From an uncultured Lysobacterales bacterium (lineage in GTDB: Bacteria > Pseudomonadota > Gammaproteobacteria > Xanthomonadales > SZUA-36), in contig CALBDB010000014.1 in the NCBI GenBank assembly GCA_937927755.1, forward strand, positions 1 through 32,734: a stretch of 32,734 nucleotides of DNA, given 5' to 3'. Shown here piece by piece: positions 15,357 through 32,686 of the stretch; the stretch's first letter is position 1; each line of letters opens with the position of its first letter. A program made the position numbers and the translations under genes. Below the pieces are notes generated by a model. The model did no database searches. It was not told where the DNA came from and saw only the letters and a program-made list of their open reading frames with translations.

Positions 15357-16583
15357 TCACTGCCAGCGAAGTACAAGTAACCCATCCCCGGTTAACTCCA
15401 CCCGGGCGTTAAGGTGCCGGCCTTCCCTGTGCAGCGTTTTCCTCAGCCATGCCTCATCCTGTTCTGATGCCTGGTTCAACCTGAATTTCCTCACCTGGTG
15501 CGGCACTATTTCCATGCCAAGGAGGCTTCCGCTGGCCGGGTCGACATCCAGAAAATACATCAGGCTCAGATCACCTCGGTAGGATTCATGACCGGTGATC
15601 CCTTCGTAGTCGTTTATAAAGTCACCGCAGCCATAAATGATTGCTTTGTTCCTGTAAACCTCGATTCCTTTTGGGTGGTGTGATGAGTGTCCATGGATCA
15701 CGTCGATACCGGCTTTATCAATTAGTTGGTGGGCAAATTCGCGCTGTTCACCAGGAACCTCGTAACCCCAGTTTCCACCCCAGTGAATCGACATCACAGC
15801 AATATCTCCAGCTTGTTTCAGGGCTCGCACCTGGTCTGCAATTTCGTTGACCGCTTCAGACGATAATTCGGCGATGAAATTGATGCCTGGTCTGTCTTTG
15901 GCAGCAGCCCAAGCTTGTGGAACCCCGCTGGTTACTGATGCGAGGGAGAATACGATGACCCGGCCTTTTTCACCTAAATCGAAAATCGCCGGGGCCCGGG
16001 CTTGTTCGCAGTTATAACCTGCGCCTGCTGTCTGCAGGCCTGCCTTGTAGAGCGTATCCAGAGTTTCTTCCAAGCCCGGGTGCCCCCAGTCCAGCACGTG
16101 GTTGTTCGCCAGCACGCAGCAATCAATACCGGCAGTGTTTATTACTGGTGTGTTGTTGGGGTGCATCCTGTAATTGATGCCCTTGTGCGGCCAGAATTCA
16201 TCACTGGTGGTTATGCTGGTTTCCAGGTTGATGATGCGAAGGTCCGGAGCCCTGTTTCCCAGTACCCGCAGGGCGTCACCCCAGATGTAGGCAAAGTTGA
16301 CAGGCCTGGGTATGGGTCCGTTGGCTGCCTCAGCGATCTCCACGTAGCCAAGCGCGCTTTTCAGGTAAGGTTCATGGAGTTGCGGATCACCCGGGTGCGG
16401 CAATACCTGGTCGATGCCGCGCCCCGTCATCACGTCGCCACAAAGGAACAGGCTGACCGGGTTGTCACTGCCGGGGGATGGTCCAGCACCTGATGTCATG
16501 GCGGTCGCGCTATGTCTAAAACCCGGACTCGCCAATGCCAGCAACCACGCGCCCGTCGATTGCATAAAGTTACGGCGGTTCAT
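15357..16583 (-). CDS. CapA-family metallophosphatase-fold protein, Tat-exported
   Basis: CapA-family proteins have a calcineurin-like fold and are linked to poly-gamma-glutamate capsule synthesis or related wall chemistry. Visible motifs are SLFLCGDVMTGRGID near the N-terminus, RIINLETSIT, VLANNHVLDWG, and SIHWGGNWGYEV with VIHGHSSHHPKGIEV, all family hallmarks. The N-terminus MNRRNFMQSTGAWLLALAS fits a twin-arginine signal. The ATG at 16583 is chosen because the family and signal start there; a longer frame to 16742 overlaps the divergent gene. Product 408 residues. It diverges from the M20/GCS2 pair. Confidence 0.92.
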   Translation of the reverse strand: MNRRNFMQSTGAWLLALASPGFRHSATAMTSGAGPSPGSDNPVSLFLCGDVMTGRGIDQVLPHPGDPQLHEPYLKSALGYVEIAEAANGPIPRPVNFAYIWGDALRVLGNRAPDLRIINLETSITTSDEFWPHKGINYRMHPNNTPVINTAGIDCCVLANNHVLDWGHPGLEETLDTLYKAGLQTAGAGYNCEQARAPAIFDLGEKGRVIVFSLASVTSGVPQAWAAAKDRPGINFIAELSSEAVNEIADQVRALKQAGDIAVMSIHWGGNWGYEVPGEQREFAHQLIDKAGIDVIHGHSSHHPKGIEVYRNKAIIYGCGDFINDYEGITGHESYRGDLSLMYFLDVDPASGSLLGMEIVPHQVRKFRLNQASEQDEAWLRKTLHREGRHLNARVELTGDGLLVLRWQ

Positions 16584-16693
16584 ATTAAAAGTATAGGCCA
16601 GGGAGCATCCTGTGCCTGAACTTGCACCGGCCGGATACAGTCTATAATTAAAGTAACAAAGCGTTTGTTTTTGCCACACATGGAGCTGAAGAA

Positions 16694-17893
16694 ATGGTCG
16701 GTTCCCAAATTGCATGCGACCCGGGAGAAAAGCCGCTCTCACGGCTTGTCGAACTCAGGCGCTGGTTTCATCAACACCCTGAATTATCCTTTCAAGAAGT
16801 CGAAACGGCACGGAAAATAGTCACCGAACTTGAACGGCTCAAAATAGCGTATGACTACGCTGGTGTCGGACACGCCGTAATTGGCCGGATTCCAGGTTGC
16901 GACCCGGCAAAACCGGCGATTGGCCTACGGGCAGAGATGGACGCCTTGCCCGGCAACGAGTCCACCGGGGCGTCTTACGCTTCGATCTATCCGGGCAAAA
17001 TGCACGCATGCGGCCACGGCGCACACATGGCCATGCTGCTTGGTGCGGCTGAGACGCTGGTCATGAATCCGCCGCTTGGGCCGGTAAACCTGGTGTTTCA
17101 GCCTGCTGAAGAAAACGGGGGCGGAGCAAGGACCGCGATTACTGACGGCGCATTGGAAAATGTGGCTGCCATATTTGCCGGGCATGTAACGCATGAGTAT
17201 ACGACCGGGCAGATCATGGTTCGCGATGGTTCGGTCACGTCGCAATCCGACCGCTTTGCGGTTCGTATTCGCGGTAAGGGCGGGCACGGTGCACGGCCTC
17301 ACGAGGCAATCGATGCGGTCGTTATTACCGGGTTCCTGATCACCGCGTTACAGACACTGGTATCACGCGAAGTCAACCCGCTTCATTCGGCCGTCGTTAC
17401 TATTGGCAAGGTCAATGCTGGTTCGGCTCCGAACGTGATTGCAGAGGAAGCGGAGCTCAAGGGGTCCATACGTACATTCCGTCCTGAAGTCAGGTACCAC
17501 ATTCATCATGGTATTAAACGCATGATCAGTGCCGCAGCCGAGTTGCATGGCGCCGAGATAGAGCTGGATATTCACGAGGGTTATCCACCCGTGATCAACG
17601 AGCCAAAGGCAACCGCCGTTGCCCAAGCTGCAGCCAGGGAAACGGTGGGTGACGATCATGTTGTCGGAGCCGAGTTTCCAAGTATGGGGTCCGAGGATTT
17701 TTCCTACTACCTCGAAAAAGTTCCGGGGGCTTTTGTTCGTTTCGGTGCACGAGCCGCTGATTGGGAGCCGATACCATTACACAGCCCGGCGTTTGATATT
17801 GATGAAAATGTACTTGCCATTGGTGCAAGGTTCTATGATCGCGTCGCGCGGCTGGGCCACAAACAGAACACGGTGTTTACCAATGGAGTTTAA
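16694..17893 (+). CDS. M20-family amidohydrolase
   Basis: M20D enzymes hydrolyse N-acyl amino acids, hippurate or similar amides with a two-metal centre. The five expected ligands appear: C106 and H108 in HACGH, E140 in QPAEE (E139 the catalytic base), H164 in FAGHVTH, and the late histidine in IPLHSPAFD. SMGSEDFSYYLEKVPG near the end is typical. Odd feature: the family motif CGHDGH/CGHDAH reads CGHGAH here, replacing the usual aspartate after H108 with glycine. Length 399 is normal; no signal peptide. GGAG lies eight bases before the ATG. Its last eleven bases overlap the start of the ligase gene. Confidence 0.92.
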   Translation: MVGSQIACDPGEKPLSRLVELRRWFHQHPELSFQEVETARKIVTELERLKIAYDYAGVGHAVIGRIPGCDPAKPAIGLRAEMDALPGNESTGASYASIYPGKMHACGHGAHMAMLLGAAETLVMNPPLGPVNLVFQPAEENGGGARTAITDGALENVAAIFAGHVTHEYTTGQIMVRDGSVTSQSDRFAVRIRGKGGHGARPHEAIDAVVITGFLITALQTLVSREVNPLHSAVVTIGKVNAGSAPNVIAEEAELKGSIRTFRPEVRYHIHHGIKRMISAAAELHGAEIELDIHEGYPPVINEPKATAVAQAAARETVGDDHVVGAEFPSMGSEDFSYYLEKVPGAFVRFGARAADWEPIPLHSPAFDIDENVLAIGARFYDRVARLGHKQNTVFTNGV

Positions 17894-25014: not shown

Positions 25015-25332
25015 ATGATGACCAGAATACTTATGATTGCTTCCGCCATTTTATTGCTTTTCTTTGCAGGCAACGTCCAGGCCAAGGGCAACATCGAAAG
25101 AGGCGCTGACCTGTCTTACGATTGCGTCGACTGTCATGGCATGGAGGGTAAGGGCACCTTTGAGACACCGCCTATCGCCGGTCTTGAAGAAGCCTATATC
25201 CTCAAGCAACTCCGGGGTTTCTCCAGCGGTAAGAAAAAATCCATGGATGACATGATGCACACCTATACAGAAGACCGGACAGATCAGGAATTGCAGGACC
25301 TGGCAGCATACTGGGCAACAAAGAAAAAATAA
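25015..25332 (+). CDS. Small periplasmic cytochrome c (c553-like)
   Basis: The 105-residue protein has a signal peptide (RILMIASAILLLFFAGNVQA) and one haem-binding CVDCH, with the axial histidine in the motif and methionines in KKSMDDMMHTY as candidate sixth ligands. The fold blocks PPIAGLEEAYILKQLRGF and QELQDLAAYWA are those of c553/c4 modules. It would shuttle single electrons in the periplasm. AGGAG lies eight bases before the ATG; a second ATG follows immediately. A REP-like copy and a hairpin terminator follow, so it is probably transcribed apart from the genes further on. Confidence 0.92.
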   Translation: MMTRILMIASAILLLFFAGNVQAKGNIERGADLSYDCVDCHGMEGKGTFETPPIAGLEEAYILKQLRGFSSGKKKSMDDMMHTYTEDRTDQELQDLAAYWATKKK

Positions 25333-25351
25333 GCTGTATGAAAGAATAAGC

Positions 25352-25388
25352 TGTAGGAGCGATCGGCGCAGCCGGTCGCTCCTCCACA
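25352..25388 (+). repeat. REP-like palindrome, copy 1
   Basis: TGTAGGAGCGATCGG then CGCAGCCGGTCGCTCC form a 12-base stem (GGAGCGATCGGC with GCCGGTCGCTCC, one G-T pair). Two similar copies occur at 31777-31807 (minus) and 32698-32729 (plus). Confidence 0.75.
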
Positions 25389-25391
25389 AAA

Positions 25392-25423
25392 AAAAGCGCT
25401 GCCCAAAACGAGGCAGCGCTTTT
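25392..25423. terminator. Bidirectional intrinsic terminator
   Basis: AAAAGCGCTGCC and GGCAGCGCTTTT form a perfect 12-bp stem with an 8-base loop; A- and T-tracts are part of the arms, so it can end transcription on both strands. It probably ends the c553-like gene. Confidence 0.8.
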
Positions 25424-25567
25424 CCATCCATGGAAATCAGATCGGTATTTAATTCGACCCGTTGTCCTTGCTTTTTTTATTTGTCGATTATAATTTTTGC
25501 ACACTTGTAACAAGTGGCTCTTCCTTTCTTGTGATTGCAATCATAAGGTATGGTGTTACGGCAAAAA

Positions 25568-25581
25568 ATGACCTACATCAA
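25568..25581. promoter_or_regulatory. FNR-type dyad, distal
   Basis: ATGACCTACATCAA keeps the perfect right half ATCAA and 3 of 5 bases of the left half. It lies 103 bp centre to centre from the perfect box at 25671. Confidence 0.4.
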
Positions 25582-25670
25582 TATGCGCTGAAAGAATTCA
25601 TTAGCCTATTGATTTTCGTCCTGTTTATGCTGAGAGTCGAGATTTGGTTAAACATGAAGTCTGATTTTTC

Positions 25671-25684
25671 TTGATATAGATCAA
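25671..25684. promoter_or_regulatory. Perfect FNR/ANR-type box
   Basis: TTGATATAGATCAA fits TTGAT-N4-ATCAA exactly. It ends 37 bp before the ATG of the pentahaem cytochrome gene. A TATATT hexamer at 25698-25703 could be a -10, though then the box would be centred near -32, closer than the usual -41.5; TAGTTT at 25707 would fit -41.5 with a very short leader. Confidence 0.65.
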
Positions 25685-25721
25685 GTGTCTACAGTGGTAT
25701 ATTTGCTAGTTTCATAGACAG

Positions 25722-26498
25722 ATGTCCAAAAAATTGCCAAAACATATCACCCGACTGCTTCTCTTGTTGGGCGTTCTCCTGATTTTAGCCTATGTCGCTA
25801 AAATCTATTTAACCGACCCCTCATTCTATAAATATGGCCATTATCGGGCAGATGCCATACCTGAGCTCGCATCCGGTGAACCGGTCTACAAAGGCTCGGC
25901 ATATTGTCTGGAGTGTCACAAAGAAAGAGAGACAGACTGGTTAATCAATGCTCATGTGGCTGTCCAATGTGAAGTGTGTCATGGCACGAACCGTGAAGTG
26001 TGTCTAAGCCCGAAACACGAACGTTCCGAAAACGCTGAGACAACAATCCCGAGTGATACGATCAGGCTGTGCACAACCTGTCACCTGGCCCTGCCTGCAC
26101 GACCGGATAAACAACCGCAGATCGTGTTGGGGCAACACCCATTCCCGGATGAGGAAACACCCCAGTGCTACACATGTCATAACCCCCACTCACCGTCAAA
26201 CGAGGAGCCCACGGAAACAGAAGGAGCCTCGGTGGCCCCAATTTCAGAATCACCAGTCAAAGAACCTGCGGCAGTGTCGAAATGTGCAAGATGCCACGGC
26301 AAGCAAGGTCAGGGTCGAAATAAAATCCCGGCCCTCGCCGGGATGAAAACCGCTGTTTTTATTGATCAGATGAACAAATACAAGTCTGGCGCTCTTGAGC
26401 ATAAAGCAATGGCCAGGTATGCCAAGTCATTAAGCGATGAAGAAATCGTCGAACTGGCCCATTACTACGAGAGCTTACCGGCACCAGCCCCTGAATAG
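25722..26498 (+). CDS. Membrane-anchored pentahaem cytochrome c
   Basis: The 258-residue protein has one N-terminal anchor (about 11-30) and five CxxCH sites: C62-H66, C83-H87, C117-H121, C149-H153 and C188-H192. The first four lie in a compact tetrahaem region reminiscent of NrfB/NapC-class proteins. After a proline/glutamate-rich linker (about 160-182), the fifth sits in a c553-like module with KIPALAGMKTAVFIDQMNKY and a candidate methionine ligand in EHKAMARY. It would sit in the periplasm and pass electrons between the ferredoxin/NrfD pair and soluble cytochromes (inference). No strong ribosome site is visible. The next gene starts 39 bp downstream. Confidence 0.9.
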   Translation: MSKKLPKHITRLLLLLGVLLILAYVAKIYLTDPSFYKYGHYRADAIPELASGEPVYKGSAYCLECHKERETDWLINAHVAVQCEVCHGTNREVCLSPKHERSENAETTIPSDTIRLCTTCHLALPARPDKQPQIVLGQHPFPDEETPQCYTCHNPHSPSNEEPTETEGASVAPISESPVKEPAAVSKCARCHGKQGQGRNKIPALAGMKTAVFIDQMNKYKSGALEHKAMARYAKSLSDEEIVELAHYYESLPAPAPE

Positions 26499-26537
26499 CG
26501 CGAGTTGGACGTTGTAGCACCAAAGAGGAGAGAGACA

Positions 26538-27371
26538 GTGAAATGTGACAAGAAAAAAACGCAACGACGCGAGTTCTTGTGCACCACTGGAAAAGCTCTC
26601 GCCGGATTGGGTGTAGTAGCTGGTGGCGGAAACCTGCTCGCCCAGGGCAGCAAGGAAGACGCAGCAAAAAAGGCAGCTTCATTCCCCACAACCGACTATG
26701 ACTGGACAAAACACCGCTGGGCATACGGCATTGACGTCACCAAGTGTATCGGTTGCCTGCGTTGCGTCGAGGCCTGCAAAGAAGAGAATAGCGTCGTCGG
26801 AGATGCCAACCACTTCCGTACCTGGGTTGAGCGTTATGTCTACCTGGAGGGAGAGGACCATGCACTGGTCGACAGTCATGCTGATCCACAGAATATAGCC
26901 GCATCGGGTTCCGAATCCGAATATCGTTTTGACAACCGTTACAAGGACGAGAAAGTAACCAAGGCCTTTTTTGTTCCCAAGATATGCAACCATTGCGCTC
27001 ACCCCGCCTGCGTCCAGGTTTGTCCGGTGGGTGCAACCTTCAGGGCAGAAGACGGAACAGTCCTCATCGATCATGACTACTGTATCGGTTGCCGTTACTG
27101 TATCCAGGCCTGTCCATACGGTGCACGGTATTTTGTCGAGGAAGAGGGCGTTTCCGACAAGTGCACCTGGTGCTCTCACCGTATTACCAAGGGAATGATG
27201 CCGGCCTGTGTTGAAGTGTGTCCTACCGGGACCCGGGTATTCGGTGACCTGAATGATGAATCCAGCCCGGTCAGTGAATTTATCAAGAACAACGCAGTGC
27301 AGGTGCTCAAACCGGAGAGTGGCAACGCCCCGATGTGCTTCTACAAAGGTCTCGACAAGGATGTGTCATGA
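26538..27371 (+). CDS. Tat-exported four-cluster ferredoxin (NrfC/DmsB-like)
   Basis: It is the iron-sulfur electron-transfer subunit of a CISM-type complex. A twin-arginine signal (QRREFLCTTGKALAGLGVVA) carries it to the periplasm. Sixteen cysteines form four [4Fe-4S] sites: C70/73/76/80, C140/143/148/152, C172/175/178/182 and C199/202/214/218. The start is a GTG at 26538 with AGAGGAG seven bases upstream; an earlier TTG frame at 26505 has no such site. Product 277 residues. Its stop overlaps the NrfD start as ATGA. In complexes of this type the protein links the quinone-reactive membrane subunit to a periplasmic redox partner. Confidence 0.95.
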   Translation: MKCDKKKTQRREFLCTTGKALAGLGVVAGGGNLLAQGSKEDAAKKAASFPTTDYDWTKHRWAYGIDVTKCIGCLRCVEACKEENSVVGDANHFRTWVERYVYLEGEDHALVDSHADPQNIAASGSESEYRFDNRYKDEKVTKAFFVPKICNHCAHPACVQVCPVGATFRAEDGTVLIDHDYCIGCRYCIQACPYGARYFVEEEGVSDKCTWCSHRITKGMMPACVEVCPTGTRVFGDLNDESSPVSEFIKNNAVQVLKPESGNAPMCFYKGLDKDVS

Positions 27372-28537
27372 CTGAAATTGCCCCTTTCACAGGTTATGTT
27401 TATCCAAACGAGACCATCATCCCGTGGGGCGTGCTGATTGTCATCTACCCTTACCTGACAGGCCTGGTGGCCGGTGCTTTCACGGTTTCGAGTTTTTACC
27501 ACGTATTCGGGATGCAACAATTCAAGCCGGTTGCCCGTCTCGCCTTGCTGACGTCATTGAGCGTGATGCTTTTTGTACCTGCGCCGCTGTTACTTCACCT
27601 GGGGCATGCGGAGCGGTCCTATTACTCCATGATCACACCACACCTGACATCAGCATTTGCCATGTTCGGGTTTTTTGCGGCTTTCTACACGATATTGCTG
27701 GTTCTCGAGGTCTGGTTTGTATTTCGGGTGGACAATGTCGAACGTGCCAAAAAATCGACCGGCCTGGCACGTGTCTTTTACCGTGCTGTTACGCTCTGGT
27801 CCGATGACGTTTCACCCAGGGCCCGAGTTATTGACAAAAAATGGTTGCTGACGCTTGCCATCGTGGGTATTCCATCCGCTCACGGCTTACATGGTTATAT
27901 CGGTTTTGTGTATGGCTCATTGAAGGCCCGCCAGTGGTGGGAGTCGGACCTGATGCCCATCATCTTTCTGTTTTCCGCCATCGTCTCGGGCATAGCCCTG
28001 CTGATGGTGTTGTATGTGCTGACATCAAAATTACGCCGTGTCAGGATCGATCATCAATGCCTGAAAGGATTAACCCTGGCGCTGTGGGGATTTTTGATGT
28101 TCACGGTGATTCTTGAAGGCCTGGAGTTTGCAAACCTCGTGTACAAGGGTAAAGAAGGCGTTGACATGATCATGGCGTACGTTCAGGGCCCGCTCTTCTG
28201 GCGCTATTTCGTGTTGCAATTCGGTTTTGGAGCGCTGTTGCCGGTTGCATTGATGGGCCTGATGATAGCTTTCGGCACACGTGGCAAAGCCTTTGTGACA
28301 GGTGCCATGGTCAGTGCATTCCTGGTTCTGATGAATGTGCTGTTGATGCGCTGGAATGTGGTCATTGGTGGCCAGGAAATATCCAAAACGGGCAAAGGTT
28401 TACTGACCTATCCCATGACTTTATTCGGGCACGAAAGTTTTGTATCTGCATCTGTCCTGATGATAGCGCCGTTTATACTGCTGTGGGTGTTGGTACGACT
28501 GTTTCCACCATGGGCCGACGGTTCGGCAAATAAGTGA
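27368..28537 (+). CDS. NrfD/PsrC-family quinone-reactive membrane subunit
   Basis: NrfD-type proteins are integral membrane subunits that oxidise quinol or reduce quinone next to an FeS subunit. The 389-residue product has about nine to ten hydrophobic segments, such as WGVLIVIYPYLTGLVAGAFT, LTSLSVMLFVPAPLLLHLGH and FFAAFYTILLVLEVWFVF. The start YPNETIIPWGVLIV and the block GIPSAHGLHGYIGF are family-like. The ATG at 27368 overlaps the ferredoxin stop by four bases (ATGA), the typical NrfC-NrfD arrangement. No molybdopterin subunit or other catalytic partner is encoded next to it. Confidence 0.93.
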   Translation: MTEIAPFTGYVYPNETIIPWGVLIVIYPYLTGLVAGAFTVSSFYHVFGMQQFKPVARLALLTSLSVMLFVPAPLLLHLGHAERSYYSMITPHLTSAFAMFGFFAAFYTILLVLEVWFVFRVDNVERAKKSTGLARVFYRAVTLWSDDVSPRARVIDKKWLLTLAIVGIPSAHGLHGYIGFVYGSLKARQWWESDLMPIIFLFSAIVSGIALLMVLYVLTSKLRRVRIDHQCLKGLTLALWGFLMFTVILEGLEFANLVYKGKEGVDMIMAYVQGPLFWRYFVLQFGFGALLPVALMGLMIAFGTRGKAFVTGAMVSAFLVLMNVLLMRWNVVIGGQEISKTGKGLLTYPMTLFGHESFVSASVLMIAPFILLWVLVRLFPPWADGSANK

Positions 28538-28566
28538 TGCTGAAAAGGAGCCAAGGAGATTTCGTC

Positions 28567-29133
28567 ATGAGAAAATCCAGCATATCAGCTGTTGCAACTG
28601 GTCTTTTCCTGTTATCCCAAACAGTATTTGCCGAGGATGTGACTCTGCCTGCGCCGGTGCTTGAGTGGTCGTTTTACATATTACTGATCTTTGCAGCATG
28701 TGTTGCCGTTGGCATTTCTATTTTCATGAGAGGAAACAACGCGCCCAGCGACAGCGTGGACAGCCTGCTTGATGAGCATAATCCGGTGATTCATTCTGTC
28801 CGTCCCGATGTGTCGGTAACAGAGTGTGTCCGCCGTATGAATAAACTCAATATCGGTGCGATGCTGGTGATGGAGAATGATCAGTTGATCGGGGTATTCA
28901 CTGAACGTGACGCAATTACCCGGGTGTTGGGAGCAGGACTGGACCCGGTCGGCACACTTATCTCCACGGTGATGACGAAAAATCCAGTTTGGGTCTCCCC
29001 TGCAACCAGCATGGAAGAAGCGATGGCCATAGTTACCAGCCAGCGTATCCGGCACCTTCCGGTAGTTGAAGGCGGCAGAGTATTAGGATTAGTGTCCAGC
29101 GGTGATCTTGTGCATAAGCTGGTTAAAGAGTAG
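28567..29133 (+). CDS. Membrane-tethered CBS-pair protein
   Basis: The 188-residue protein has a cleavable-looking signal peptide (ISAVATGLFLLSQTVFA), a short mature segment, one membrane helix (SFYILLIFAACVAVGISIF), then two CBS repeats: HSVRPDVSVTECVRRM to GVFTERDAITRVL and VSPATSMEEAMAIV to LGLVSSGDLVHKL. By the predicted topology the CBS pair lies in the cytoplasm, where such domains bind adenine nucleotides. The ATG at 28567 has AAGGAG eight bases upstream. It lies 29 bp after the NrfD-like gene and is probably in the same operon, perhaps reporting energy state to the complex (inference). Confidence 0.88.
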   Translation: MRKSSISAVATGLFLLSQTVFAEDVTLPAPVLEWSFYILLIFAACVAVGISIFMRGNNAPSDSVDSLLDEHNPVIHSVRPDVSVTECVRRMNKLNIGAMLVMENDQLIGVFTERDAITRVLGAGLDPVGTLISTVMTKNPVWVSPATSMEEAMAIVTSQRIRHLPVVEGGRVLGLVSSGDLVHKLVKE

Positions 29134-29246
29134 ATTTGATCTGCGTAATATCAAGAAAATAGACCTTGGTTTAGATTGATATGATTTCCCTATATGGCAT
29201 ACTTGCCAAAGTTGCTGCGCGCAATGATGCGAGAGAAACAATAAAA

Positions 29247-30470
29247 ATGAAGAAAAACAGGTTTTTCCAACAAATTGTCTTCACTGTTCTGCTTGGATTG
29301 GCTTCCACCCTGGTACAGGGCGCGGGCCAGACCCAACCCGTTCAGGCAGAAGAACGGAGAGCCCTTTTCCCATCAACAAAAATGATCAATCAGGGCAGGG
29401 ATGTCGCCGCGGCCGCCTGTGCAAGCTGCCATGGCATCGATGGTGTCAGTGTTATAAAGGGCACACCCCATCTTGCGGGTCAGCGGGCCGTCTATCTGTA
29501 CCGTACCCAACAGGCCTACAATGAAGGCAAGCGGTTTGATGAGACCAATAAACACAAGGGTTTCCTGAAGGATGAGGCAGTGCTTTCTGTTGCTGCTTAT
29601 TATGCCAGCCTGACTCCCACTCAAATCACTGTACCAATGGTCGAACCCGATGCAGACATGTCTGAGGAGGATGCCTTTGTCGGCATTAGGGAAGCCATGA
29701 CCAGGTGCATCAAGTGTCATGGTGATACTGGCAATTCTGATAGCTCAGGGATGCCCAGCCTCACAGCCCAGCATCCTGATTATTTTGTAAGTTCAATGAT
29801 GGGCTACCTCGATGGCAGCCGTAGTCATAATTTGATGAAAAGGCTTGCCGGCAAACTGGATGAGGTAACCCTTAGGGACATGGGTGTGTTCTATGCGGTG
29901 CAGAAACCCATGCGTACTGAGACCCAAGGTCAGGGTGATGCCAATGTCGGTCATCGTCTTTCACAGCCATGCGCAAGTTGCCATGGTGTAGATGGTAATG
30001 CGCATAAAGCAGACATGCCTACCCTGGCGGGTCAGGACTCAAAATACTTCATCAAGGCAATGAAGCACTACAAGGATGGCAAGCGTCTGCATCAAAAAAT
30101 GTTTGAAGCAGTGGAAAATCTAAGTGAGCAGGACATGATTGACCTTGCAACATTTTATGCCACCCAGGAACCTGTCCAGAGGAATGTGCGACCGCCGCTG
30201 AAAAGCTCCGAGTGGATTGCACGTTGCGAACGCTGTCACGGCATCGAAGGAAACAGCAGCGACCCGCGTTTCCCGATGTTGGCAGGGCAGGACAAGGATT
30301 ACCTGGTCAAGTCTCTCAGGCTTTCCGCTTCTGGGGAGAACGGCCACACCACAATGCTTAAAATGGCTGATCGCCTGAGTGCACTGGATATCGAACGTAT
30401 TGCAACTTACTTTGCTTCGCAGCCACCGAGGGCCGTGGTCTACATATCGTTGCCATGCGAGGATGAGTAA
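29247..30470 (+). CDS. Tetrahaem cytochrome c of fused c4-type modules
   Basis: The 407-residue periplasmic protein has a signal peptide (KKNRFFQQIVFTVLLGLAST) and four c4/c553-like modules with CxxCH at C58, C144, C222 and C317, looking like two dihaem c4 proteins in tandem. Modules 2 to 4 have a methionine at the equivalent ligand position (M177, M265, M360). Module 1 has NKHKG near residue 101 and no methionine there, so its haem may be high-spin or use Lys/His. The ATG at 29247 is chosen because it begins the signal peptide; the ORF extends to 29181. Ribosome site is weak. Confidence 0.92.
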   Translation: MKKNRFFQQIVFTVLLGLASTLVQGAGQTQPVQAEERRALFPSTKMINQGRDVAAAACASCHGIDGVSVIKGTPHLAGQRAVYLYRTQQAYNEGKRFDETNKHKGFLKDEAVLSVAAYYASLTPTQITVPMVEPDADMSEEDAFVGIREAMTRCIKCHGDTGNSDSSGMPSLTAQHPDYFVSSMMGYLDGSRSHNLMKRLAGKLDEVTLRDMGVFYAVQKPMRTETQGQGDANVGHRLSQPCASCHGVDGNAHKADMPTLAGQDSKYFIKAMKHYKDGKRLHQKMFEAVENLSEQDMIDLATFYATQEPVQRNVRPPLKSSEWIARCERCHGIEGNSSDPRFPMLAGQDKDYLVKSLRLSASGENGHTTMLKMADRLSALDIERIATYFASQPPRAVVYISLPCEDE

Positions 30471-30556
30471 AAGGATTAACACCCGGTAATTCAGATTAGG
30501 TATATTTTTTTGACGGACTTGGTTTCGGGTCCACATTTCCAGAGGAGAAGTAAAAG

Positions 30557-30868
30557 ATGTTAACTAGAAAATTGATAGGCGCAATGATGTTTGTTTTGAT
30601 GCTTTCAGCTGGTGGTGTACAGGCTGGCGGCGATGCTGCCAAGGGTGCAGAACTGGCTGCAGATTGCGCAGACTGCCATGGTGACGATGGTAAAGGTGAT
30701 GATGAAGTACCAGGCATTGCCGGTATGGATGCAGCAGCGCATGCCAAGAAGTTGGCAGACTTCCAGTCTGGTGCCATAGATAGCGAAATGGCAGATTACG
30801 TGGAAGGCCTCAGTGAGCAGGATTTTGCTGATCTCGCGGCTTACTTTGCCACGTTACCTGCCGAGTGA
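30557..30868 (+). CDS. Small periplasmic cytochrome c (c553-like)
   Basis: The 103-residue protein has a signal peptide (KLIGAMMFVLMLSAGGVQA) and one CADCH haem site, with a methionine in IDSEMADYV as probable sixth ligand. GIAGMDAAAHAKKLADFQ and FADLAAYFATLP match the c553-like modules of the pentahaem and tetrahaem genes, so it is likely a duplicate of that module. It is acidic. AGAGGAG precedes the ATG. It sits 86 bp after the tetrahaem gene and before two hairpins. Confidence 0.92.
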   Translation: MLTRKLIGAMMFVLMLSAGGVQAGGDAAKGAELAADCADCHGDDGKGDDEVPGIAGMDAAAHAKKLADFQSGAIDSEMADYVEGLSEQDFADLAAYFATLPAE

Positions 30869-30900
30869 AAGCAGTCGGTAAGAATATTAAAATAAAATGA

Positions 30901-30952
30901 TTGACCAGTTTTGGCTGGTCAAAAATGCGGCCGGGCGCCATGGCTCGGCCGC
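30901..30952 (+). repeat. Two consecutive intercistronic hairpins
   Basis: TTGACCAG/CTGGTCAA (30901-30908 with 30915-30922) forms an 8-bp stem; GCGGCCG/CGGCCGC (30927-30933 with 30946-30952) a 7-bp stem extended inward. Neither is followed by a T-tract on the plus strand. The second ends just before the GAGGA ribosome site of the next gene, so they may protect the upstream mRNA or damp downstream translation. Confidence 0.5.
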
Positions 30953-30966
30953 GAGGATGAAGCCAC

Positions 30967-31749
30967 ATGATTGACCGTCGTATTCACCGCCTTTACCGGC
31001 ATTTCCAGGAGTTGCCCCTTAGCATGCGCACCCTGTTTACAGGGACCCTGCTGGTGGTCGGCATGGGCTACATGTTTGGTCTGATTTATGTCTACGCCCA
31101 GGATGCAGGCCGGGATGGCAAACCCGGCTTATCGGTGGACGATATCATTATTTCTTACAGTGGCTCATCCGAGGGTACGAAACTTGAAGCCGCGTTGCAG
31201 GGGCCAATGTCATCAATGTTACCTGCCGGTGACAGCGCAGAAATTATTAGATGGATAAAAGATGGGGCAGACAAGACAGTATACGAGACAACGGTCCAAC
31301 CCATCGTCGAACAAAATTGTCTCGACTGCCATGATGGTGGCAATCCACATTTGTCCAATCTCGATGGCTTTGAAAATATATCAACCCTGGTAGCACAAGA
31401 TACGGGAGCGAGTTTACATACCCTGGTGCGTGTGTCTCATATTCACCTGTTCGGAATGACTTTTATCTTCTTCATACTGGGCTTTATTTTTAGCCACGCC
31501 TTCATACGACCCATATGGCTCAAGAGCCTGGTGGTGCTTACCCCGTTCGTGTGCATCATCGCCGATGTAAGTTCCTGGTATTTCACCAAGATTTACACTC
31601 CCTTTGCGTGGGTCGTGCTGGTCGCCGGTGGTCTCATGGGAGCAAGTTTCGCCTTCATGTGGATCACCTCCATGTACCAAATGTGGTTTTACAAGCCACC
31701 TGAGTGGGTTGATAAAACTGACGGGCACGGGCCAGAAGCAGACGACTAG
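30967..31749 (+). CDS. Multi-helix membrane protein with one c-type haem
   Basis: The 260-residue protein has an N-terminal helix (about 22-44, TLFTGTLLVVGMGYMFGLIYV), a periplasmic domain with one CLDCH (C118-H122) preceded by TVQPIVEQN, and then about four helices from residue 148 on (MTFIFFILGFIFSHAFI, SLVVLTPFVCIIADVSSW, FAWVVLVAGGLMGASFAFMW). The first C-terminal helix begins SHIHLFGM, two histidines (H148, H150) close to the membrane that could bind a b haem or quinone. I do not recognise a named family. It ends the cytochrome run and may tie the soluble cytochromes to the membrane (inference). Confidence 0.85.
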   Translation: MIDRRIHRLYRHFQELPLSMRTLFTGTLLVVGMGYMFGLIYVYAQDAGRDGKPGLSVDDIIISYSGSSEGTKLEAALQGPMSSMLPAGDSAEIIRWIKDGADKTVYETTVQPIVEQNCLDCHDGGNPHLSNLDGFENISTLVAQDTGASLHTLVRVSHIHLFGMTFIFFILGFIFSHAFIRPIWLKSLVVLTPFVCIIADVSSWYFTKIYTPFAWVVLVAGGLMGASFAFMWITSMYQMWFYKPPEWVDKTDGHGPEADD

Positions 31750-31876: not shown

Positions 31877-32686
31877 TCAGGATTGTGTGCCGTGGATCTG
31901 GGGTAGCAGGAAATCTACGCCTACATAGGTGAATATAACGGCTAAAAAGCCAATGATGGCCAGGATGGCGGCACGCCGGCCCTTCCAGTCCAGCGTGTAG
32001 CGTGCGTGCAGGTAGGCCATGAAAATCAGCCAGGTGATGAACGACCAGGTCTCCTTGGGATCCCACAGCCAGAGAAAGCCAAATACACGGTCACCCCACA
32101 ACGCACCCGTGATGATGCCGAGGGTCAGGAAGCAGAACGCAAAAAAAGCCGCACGATAAGCCATCCGGTCAAATAACCCCGGCGAGGCTTCCTTTTTGTG
32201 TTCCAGGTACAGAAAGCTGACCGATGCAGCAAAGGTGATCGACCAGGCCGCGTAGCCGAGCAGGGTTGTCAAGACGTGGAATTTCAGCAACAGGCTATTA
32301 AAAATTACGAACACCGGCTGAATACCACGGGGCAAAAGCGCCGCATAAAACATCAGGAACAGCCCCACAGGCAATAAAAAGACCCCCAGCATGCGGTTTT
32401 TTTCATTGATCGAAAACAACAGGAAGACACCGATAACAAGCATCGCGAAGAAGCTCACGAACTCAAACGCCGTGATCAGGGGGATATGACCCGCCTGCCA
32501 CCAGCGCAAGCCCATTAGCAGCAAGTGCAGCGCCCAGCCGGCCCACAGTATCCGGATGGCAACACCGGTTTGTCTATCTGAGCCCAGTTGCCAGCCACGT
32601 AAATGCCATACCCAGGCAACAACATAGAGCAGCGTTGTTAATGAGAACAGCAGAAGTTCGAGGTTTTCGTACATTTTCAAATGCAT
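31877..32686 (-). CDS. ccsB: System II cytochrome c maturation protein (CcsA/CcsB-type, WWD family)
   Basis: The protein handles haem for attachment to apocytochromes in System II maturation; naming varies (CcsA in some schemes, CcsB in TIGR03144). The 269-residue product has about eight membrane helices. The WWD haem-handling loop is visible: W197 GDR and LWLWDPKETWSF (W206-W214), with the candidate haem-ligand histidines H137 (KFHVL) and H227 (YLHARY). The start at 32686 has no clear ribosome site; an ATG four codons later is equally possible. The usual ResB partner is not adjacent: a REP-like copy lies directly upstream. Its position next to five cytochrome genes is functionally consistent. 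Confidence 0.92.
   Translation of the reverse strand: MHLKMYENLELLLFSLTTLLYVVAWVWHLRGWQLGSDRQTGVAIRILWAGWALHLLLMGLRWWQAGHIPLITAFEFVSFFAMLVIGVFLLFSINEKNRMLGVFLLPVGLFLMFYAALLPRGIQPVFVIFNSLLLKFHVLTTLLGYAAWSITFAASVSFLYLEHKKEASPGLFDRMAYRAAFFAFCFLTLGIITGALWGDRVFGFLWLWDPKETWSFITWLIFMAYLHARYTLDWKGRRAAILAIIGFLAVIFTYVGVDFLLPQIHGTQS

Follow-up and report, generated by a model that had tools for sequence, protein, structure and literature searches.

A putative stand-alone quinone:cytochrome module with a fused class I cytochrome domain in an uncultured Lysobacterales bacterium

The locus described here lies on contig CALBDB010000014.1 of an uncultured Lysobacterales bacterium (GenBank assembly GCA_937927755.1; 3.4 Mb in 191 contigs), and the window, that is, the whole stretch of 32,734 nucleotides that was analysed, represents this entire contig (C14). 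The ORF (open reading frame) listing of the window places eight ORFs on one strand (+) across positions 25015-31749, and three of these, which encode a multihaem cytochrome c, an iron-sulfur (Fe-S) protein exported by the twin-arginine (Tat) system, and an NrfD-type membrane protein, form the core of a module (25722-28537) that may exchange electrons between the quinone pool and the periplasmic cytochromes. The features of the region are as follows:

25015-25332, + strand: cycA, a monohaem class I cytochrome c (PF00034, E 2.9e-08)
25671-25684, + strand: putative FNR-type palindrome TTGATATAGATCAA, whose first base is 51 bases before the start codon of the 5-haem gene
25722-26498, + strand: 5-haem subunit, with a hydrophobic N-terminal anchor (residues 5-33), a c7-like tetrahaem domain (Pfam Cytochrome_C7) and a fused class I cytochrome c domain (Pfam Cytochrome_CBB3)
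26505-27371, + strand: NrfC/CbcT/DsrO-type Fe-S subunit, with a Tat signal and four cubane motifs (Fer4_11, E 1.8e-28)
27368-28537, + strand: NrfD-type quinone subunit (PF03916, E 7.6e-36)
28534-29133, + strand: CBS-pair protein, hydrophobic in its N-terminal part (36-68), with a 4-base overlap with the NrfD gene (PF00571, E 1.4e-24)
29181-30470, + strand: tetraC, with class I cytochrome c domains and four CxxCH motifs (PF00034, E 1.3e-22)
30557-30868, + strand: cycB, a monohaem class I cytochrome c (PF00034, E 1.5e-08)
30967-31749, + strand: TM260, 260 amino acids, with one CxxCH motif and hydrophobic segments, and no Pfam or NCBIfam match

The initial annotation of this DNA had described 12 haem sites in five proteins, a Tat ferredoxin with 16 cluster cysteines, an NrfD subunit, and a CBS protein in one strand-consistent run, and this inventory is borne out by the counts and the Pfam matches. 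The CxxCH motif occurs once in cycA, five times in the 5-haem gene, four times in tetraC, and once each in cycB and TM260, and is found in none of the 21 other gene-size ORFs listed for the window; residue-shuffled copies of the five cytochromes contain a mean of 0.04 such motifs (maximum 2, in 2000 shuffles). The Fe-S gene begins 6 bases after the 5-haem gene, the NrfD and CBS genes each overlap the preceding gene by 4 bases, and gaps of 47, 86, and 98 bases precede tetraC, cycB, and TM260, respectively. The most likely start of NrfD is the ATG at 27368, which overlaps the Fe-S stop codon as ATGA, and not position 27335. The single strand of the run is confirmed, but not the inclusion of cycA in the operon, given that this gene is probably a separate unit with its own transcript, because a gap of 389 bases divides it from the 5-haem gene, and an inverted repeat, accompanied by a short run of T, lies at approximately 25395-25424 (read by eye, and absent from the list of the repeat scan). 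In the relatives L039 and L029, cycA is detached from the module.

A single NrfD scan of genome contigs, titled as gamma-, beta-, and alphaproteobacterial metagenome-assembled genomes (MAGs), recovered 17 core loci, in which the NrfD proteins are 57-92% identical. The order multihaem cytochrome, Fe-S protein, NrfD is found in all 16 of the loci that hold upstream DNA, being established by gene calls in 13 and by tblastn in three (L030, L035, and L038), while L027 starts inside the Fe-S gene. The CBS gene follows NrfD directly in seven of the 17 loci, plus L090. Of the seven proteins that had been proposed as a set for a search across genomes, only the triad is constant, and CBS, tetraC, cycB, and TM260 are lineage-specific neighbours.

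The multihaem subunit itself varies around a tetrahaem core (alignment A2, 14 rows), at which the Thiobacillus and Tepidiphilus versions end, and to which one class I domain is added in the window, and three in L031. Single haem motifs of the 5-haem gene are altered in some of the relatives, the fourth site reading CQNYH in L026 and the first YWLECH in L029, with a CX3CH site (CLEECH) in L024. In this last locus (L024/L040; G020:C122, 1828-2758), the NrfD gene is divided between two frames, which may reflect either a genuine frameshift or a fault in the assembly. In the Thiobacillus/Hydrogenophilaceae loci L033-L035, no further CxxCH protein is present in the available stretch, and no redox-enzyme family was found among the neighbours scanned. 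The conservation of the triad as a unit, and its occurrence in these loci without any other haem protein, fit the earlier proposal of a stand-alone quinone:cytochrome c module with a built-in cytochrome wire. The module is rare, being found in nine of 61 relatives at E <= 1e-20 (with the NrfD of G020 in two pieces, and that of G023 cut by a contig end), and in seven of 370 class genomes and two of 397 phylum genomes at E <= 1e-50, the window's genome being included in each of these counts.

The evidence for a quinone site comes from both of the conserved partners of the cytochrome. Of the 19 cysteines of the Fe-S protein, 16 lie in the four cubane motifs; the protein also has a twin-arginine motif, and its best match in the PDB is 2vpw_B, chain B of polysulfide reductase (E 1e-43). 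According to PMC13059093, two residues are essential in QrcABCD, namely a tyrosine located between two cluster cysteines of QrcC (Y113) and a QrcD serine, and Thermus thermophilus PsrB has an alanine where QrcC has this tyrosine. Tyr198 of the Fe-S protein lies between Cys196 and Cys199, is aligned with the alanine of PsrB, and is present in 19 of the 19 core rows, and on this alignment, it is the match of the essential Y113 of QrcC; an equivalent tyrosine is also found in the DsrO of the window's genome and in Escherichia coli NrfC. In NrfD, residues Y26, H76, S94, and R327 are invariant (alignment A1, 15 rows), and may correspond to the published residues of the quinone site, as judged from their spacing; neither this match nor that of Tyr198, which is based on the alignment with PsrB, comes from a structure. 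The AlphaFold model of NrfD has a mean pLDDT (predicted local distance difference test) of 73.8, and is nearest to ActC, the C chain, in four structures of alternative complex III (TMq 0.70-0.74); no sequence match to NrfD was obtained in the PDB at E values up to 1. The Pfam assignment, the conserved residues, and the predicted fold are all those of a quinone subunit of the NrfD superfamily.

Within this superfamily, the two subunits differ in their affinities. The NrfD protein scores 38.0 on the NCBIfam model of NrfD (cut-off 347.6) and 37.0 on that of DsrP (350), and the Fe-S protein scores 138.1 on NrfC (377.6) and 189.6 on DsrO (200), with values of 191.1-198.0 on the DsrO model for the Fe-S proteins at four further loci, of the core or near it, which indicates that the Fe-S subunit is close to the DsrO family, whereas the NrfD subunit is not close to DsrP. 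In a tree of 29 NrfD proteins, the core proteins and those of L066 and L067 form a supported clade (98/99), apart from E. coli NrfD, the HybB/Hmc-like rows, and the NrfD-family protein found beside DsrO in the window's genome, whose row was named "DsrP" from this position (61.0 of 350 on the DsrP model). This tree covers the 17 loci other than L027, L040/L024 (in which NrfD is split), and L041, and does not include Geobacter CbcU, while the Fe-S tree covers 10 of the 17, the window included. Long branches come together in each of the two trees, and in that of NrfD, the outgroup branches are long and uncertain in their order, so that nothing beyond the separateness of the core clade is drawn from them here.

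Membership of NrfABCD was rejected, given that no NrfA match was found in the window run, the NrfC and NrfD equivalog scores are below their cut-offs, and the tree places the protein apart. The same applies to DsrMKJOP, for which no DsrM or DsrK match was found in the run, and the NrfD score is far from the DsrP cut-off. The NCBIfam scores, together with the trees that had been suggested as a check, leave the NrfD subunit outside NrfABCD, DsrP, and HybB/Hmc, with the Fe-S subunit just under the DsrO cut-off, and the module looks like a sequence-distinct family of known layout, with a fused class I domain.

As the window is the whole contig, a catalytic gene beyond it was looked for in the relatives. 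No molybdopterin, NrfA-type, or sulfite-reductase family was found in the 35 core-locus neighbours scanned with Pfam, which are a part of all the neighbours, and no catalytic gene was seen to join the triad consistently in the related loci. The best candidate for a multihaem partner, an octahaem protein of 514 amino acids, was looked for at E <= 1e-30 in the genome of the window and in G004 and G008, and no match was obtained. On the basis of the neighbour scans and the octahaem search, NrfA, a molybdopterin protein, and the octahaem protein were each rejected as an obligate subunit. The absence of a catalytic partner, as first reported from the window, is repeated in the scanned neighbours of the relatives, but a cytochrome d1 protein is found at one locus.

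Some distant NrfD relatives do adjoin molybdopterin genes, including that of L071 (35% identical) and those of two plasmid loci, L142 and L143, from Halorubrum and Paracoccus (31 and 25% identical, respectively), as would be expected if the module were part of a molybdopterin, nitrite, or sulfite reductase whose catalytic gene lies elsewhere. Given the scanned neighbours and the octahaem result, this is very improbable, although the window's genome itself was not searched for molybdopterin enzymes. A separate observation is that a dihaem protein (L029:6766-8094) and an octahaem protein (L029:15097-16641) share a C-terminal stretch around GEGFNVEV.

The genome of the window also encodes putative components of extracellular electron conduits, all on other contigs, and thus beyond the reach of the initial annotation. 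An MtrB/PioB barrel (E 2.5e-135) is encoded after a decahaem protein, and a further pair resembles MtrA-MtrB and is accompanied by a decahaem protein bearing MtrC/MtrF domains (E 4.2e-49). A CbcL-like protein, encoded on a 4.7-kb contig, has nine CxxCH motifs followed by hydrophobic segments; nine haem c motifs and then a b-type part are the reported architecture of CbcL (PMC6295460). On contig C174, the same genome carries a DsrO gene that exceeds its cut-off (318.1 of 200), and it also encodes two Hmc-like NrfD proteins, which score below their cut-offs and branch apart from the NrfD of the module. Genes for bc1-type cytochrome b, haem-copper oxidase, and the RuBisCO family are present as well.

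In several relatives, the module lies near some of the conduit genes. In five same-family genomes (G002, G007, G014, G020, and G023), NrfD and the CbcL-like gene are separated by a gap of 4.2-8.0 kb. The module, the CbcL-like gene, and MtrB lie at 23.6, 32.7, and 52.5 kb, respectively, on a single contig of G007, and at 1.8, 6.9, and 18.6 kb on one of G020, while the module and the CbcL-like gene are 5.2-7.5 kb apart in G002, G014, and G023. A CbcL-like gene is also found near the module in L032. In the 41 relatives searched, the CbcL-like protein, counted only at E below 1e-150 (which leaves out weak matches in G009 and G012), is present in all nine module-positive genomes and in six of the 32 that are module-negative. 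TM260 was found in nine of nine module-positive versus 10 of 52 module-negative relatives, and MtrB in seven of nine versus 17 of 52 (p 0.022), although the p-values are descriptive only, because the genomes are related. The island of G007 (G007:C44, approximately 16-66 kb; L039/L056/L074) further includes an octahaem protein of 523 amino acids, a nine-haem protein, an Hmc-like triad, MtrAB genes, succinate dehydrogenase/fumarate reductase-like genes, an octahaem PF11783 protein, and a six-haem b-type fusion.

The region upstream of the 5-haem gene provides a clue to the conditions under which the module may be used. The palindrome at 25671-25684 is the sole perfect match in the window to TTGATN4ATCAA, which we take to be the FNR consensus (0.06 expected), and six other sites in the window match nine of the ten fixed bases. 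Near the same place, at least nine of the ten are found in six of the seven same-family loci, with differing spacers, and four of these loci (the window, L025, L028, and L039) have all ten, at -51; shuffled upstream regions of the same-family loci reach nine in 0.6-3.2% of cases. The module is thus probably induced at low oxygen through a putative FNR-type site, and low-oxygen use would favour anaerobic quinol oxidation over aerobic uptake, without amounting to proof. Among the other genes of the island, at least nine of ten bases are matched upstream of nine of 39 starts (seven sites, with two pairs sharing one site each), in comparison with two of 18 other window genes. Upstream boxes so mixed do not show an FNR-type regulon across the island.

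In the sister genome G017, a different triad occupies the same neighbourhood. The gene order here is MtrB, MtrA, CbcL-like, tetraC2, TM260, a cycB homologue (47%), tetraC, and a triad formed by a tetrahaem protein of 238 amino acids, a DsrO-like protein, and a DsrP-like protein, whose DsrP score of 392.9 exceeds the cut-off of 350. The tetrahaem proteins of G017 and the window have a weak likeness (24% over 114 residues). The models of DsrM, DsrK, and DsrJ have no match in ten further ORFs of the 13-kb stretch of G017. Three of these ORFs encode cytochrome c maturation proteins (NrfE/CcmF-, NrfF-, and NrfG-like; L138:9000-12935), and genes of related function are found close to the triad in the window (CcsB-like, 31877-32686) and in L036 (a CcmH-type TPR protein, 16452-17867).

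Taken together, these data suggest that the core is rather probably a stand-alone Cbc4-like oxidoreductase between quinol/quinone and periplasmic cytochromes, probably induced at low oxygen, which would serve an extracellular-electron system as one of its quinone ports. For the family, the role of quinone port to such a system is likely, and in the window's own assembly, the module is unlinked to it. A number of results weigh against this reading. No conduit gene is found in the 25 kb upstream of the module, and the contig ends approximately 1 kb after TM260. In G004, the module and the CbcL-like gene are on different contigs, with no MtrB match, in G001 there is no conduit gene within 8.9 kb downstream of the module, and the linkage was not seen in G000, G001, or G008, whose contigs are short or end nearby (6 kb in G008). 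Within the family, the MtrB association is not significant (seven of nine versus 12 of 28, p 0.12), and the count for G001 rests on a fragment of 54 residues. The CbcL-like proteins are so named by architecture, and not from a CbcL sequence, and the b-type Pfam match of that of the window's genome is just below the cut-off. The common TM260 has no MtrAB match in its 18 class stretches outside the family. The FNR-type box is weak in L024 (seven of ten) and in nine of the 11 loci outside the family (L031 and L032 reach nine), and the DsrO-like protein of G017 has a methionine at the place of Tyr198. Five of the ten TM260-positive, module-negative relatives (G015, G022, G026, G028, and G030) have no triad beside tetraC; four of the others (G003, G009, G010, and G036) are cut by contig ends, and the tenth is G017. 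Finally, a cytochrome d1-domain protein (L032:2112-3770; PF02239, E 2.7e-119) lies approximately 6 kb from the module of L032.

This last protein, the module of L033-L035 with no other haem proteins, and the lack of linkage to conduit genes on the window's contig would agree with a general bypass of the bc1 complex, similar to alternative complex III, which delivers electrons to an oxidase or a soluble periplasmic reductase, with the nearness of the conduit being incidental. The class I cytochrome domains that dominate the operon and the likeness of the NrfD fold to ActC point in the same direction. This bypass is possible, yet doubtful, given the repeated nearness of the CbcL-like gene in five genomes of the family and L032, the FNR-type box, and the presence of bc1 itself in the genome.

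The direction of flow may also be reversed, in which case an extracellular or periplasmic donor would reduce the class I cytochromes and, through these, the quinone, as in QrcABCD, to feed NADH formation and carbon fixation. This differs from the quinone port favoured here only in its direction, and the likelihoods assigned to the two are not exclusive. The RuBisCO-family, bc1-type cytochrome b, and haem-copper oxidase genes of the window's genome are consistent with inward flow, as are the reduction of menaquinone by Qrc in sulfate reducers (PMC13059093), the CbcL/MtoC homologues of Fe(II) oxidisers (PMC6295460), and the MAGs of iron-oxidising genera that encode MtrC (PMC10734462). Inward flow is nevertheless unlikely, given that the FNR-type control suggests low-oxygen use, and the RuBisCO-family search also matches the Bacillus subtilis control, so that the gene is named here by family, and not by form. 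Class I cytochrome domains usually have a high potential, moreover, and would be poor electron donors to quinone. The transfer of electrons from quinol through the cytochromes to an anaerobic, possibly extracellular, acceptor thus appears somewhat likelier than uptake.

In the quinone port favoured here, NrfD would bind quinone near the periplasmic face, and the clusters of the Tat-exported Fe-S subunit would relay the electrons to the anchored tetrahaem domain, and on to the fused class I domain, from which they may be received by tetraC, cycB, and cycA. The anatomy of this chain is shown by the sequence, and the path is suggested by analogy with relatives that have been solved or mutated. 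The module would be one of several quinone ports in the family, alongside the CbcL-like cytochrome and the MtrAB or MtrCAB conduits. The CBS protein may conceivably tune the module to the adenylate state. For TM260, three histidines (His158, His160, and His177) are invariant in an alignment of nine rows, the structure model is poor (pLDDT 56.5), and no PDB sequence match was found at E values up to 10. This family occurs in 61 of 370 class genomes, adjoins a small monohaem cytochrome in several loci, and was ruled out as a marker of extracellular electron transfer, being common and lacking an MtrAB match in the class stretches outside the family.

The kind of module described here, which the initial annotation thought possibly undescribed, is in fact known. 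The closest system in layout is CbcSTU (Cbc4) of Geobacter, linked to extracellular electron transfer, which consists of a four-haem cytochrome, a ferredoxin, and a b-type membrane protein (PMC10989804, PMC11434368). As in the window, a multihaem cytochrome c (four haems in Gmet_0325), a periplasmic 4Fe-4S protein, and a b-type/NrfD-like membrane protein are encoded by three genes, and the run of the window likewise has no catalytic gene. The window differs in its fused class I domain and in the CBS, tetraC, cycB, and TM260 genes that follow, and the likeness is judged here from the layout.

The tetrahaem-DsrOhPh locus, or pACIII, of cable bacteria, which is proposed to pass electrons from the quinone pool to the periplasm (PMC13047784, PMC11976967), and whose role its authors call elusive, also has the three-part layout (tetrahaem, DsrO-like, and NrfD proteins), to which the window adds a fused fifth haem, of class I. 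The NrfD of pACIII falls near the reductive DsrP, as does that of G017, but not that of the window, and the G017 triad is likened to the cable-bacteria locus by its layout and DsrP score, and not through cable-bacteria sequences. It is tempting to suggest, albeit tentatively, that the window module and the cable-bacteria locus are two NrfD branches recruited as an exchangeable quinone port, which charges periplasmic cytochromes for long-range or extracellular export. As both types of triad lie beside the same tetraC, cycB, and TM260 genes, and the window's genome has a DsrO gene, the family may, by the same tentative argument, link the oxidation of sulfur to acceptors outside the cell, with control of an FNR type. 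The sharing of one neighbourhood, by the MtrAB and CbcL-like genes, between a sequence-distinct module and a DsrP-type triad provides a comparative argument that both are outward-wiring quinone ports, and if this is true, a family of uncultured gammaproteobacteria is predicted to be electroactive.

Among the literature matches listed, no title names this module family (subscription literature being mostly outside the coverage), and nothing was found that joins the module with the CBS domain or with Thiobacillus. Other systems share parts of its logic. QrcABCD, Nhc, and Hmc exchange electrons between cytochrome c and quinone through an Fe-S/NrfD pair (PMC8076601, PMC13059093), Nhc and similar complexes having been reviewed, and no further subunit of the Qrc or Nhc type was recognised in the window run. 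Alternative complex III has the nearest NrfD fold, in ActC, and the same quinol:cytochrome c logic, whereas the window run has no Fe-S subunit of the size of ActB, and one NrfD protein instead of two. Fe-S/membrane-anchor modules with multihaem cytochromes have been described as quinol-oxidising complexes in MBNT15 and Melioribacter (PMC9386147). The CbcL/MtrH/MtoC genes known beside mtrAB (PMC6295460) form an island of the same kind as that of the relatives; this paper concerns the CbcL-like protein, and the word "NrfD" is absent from its text. Given this, the kind of module is already known, and what is new is the family, its fused domain, the partnership observed among relatives, and the fact that it alternates with a triad of the DsrP type.

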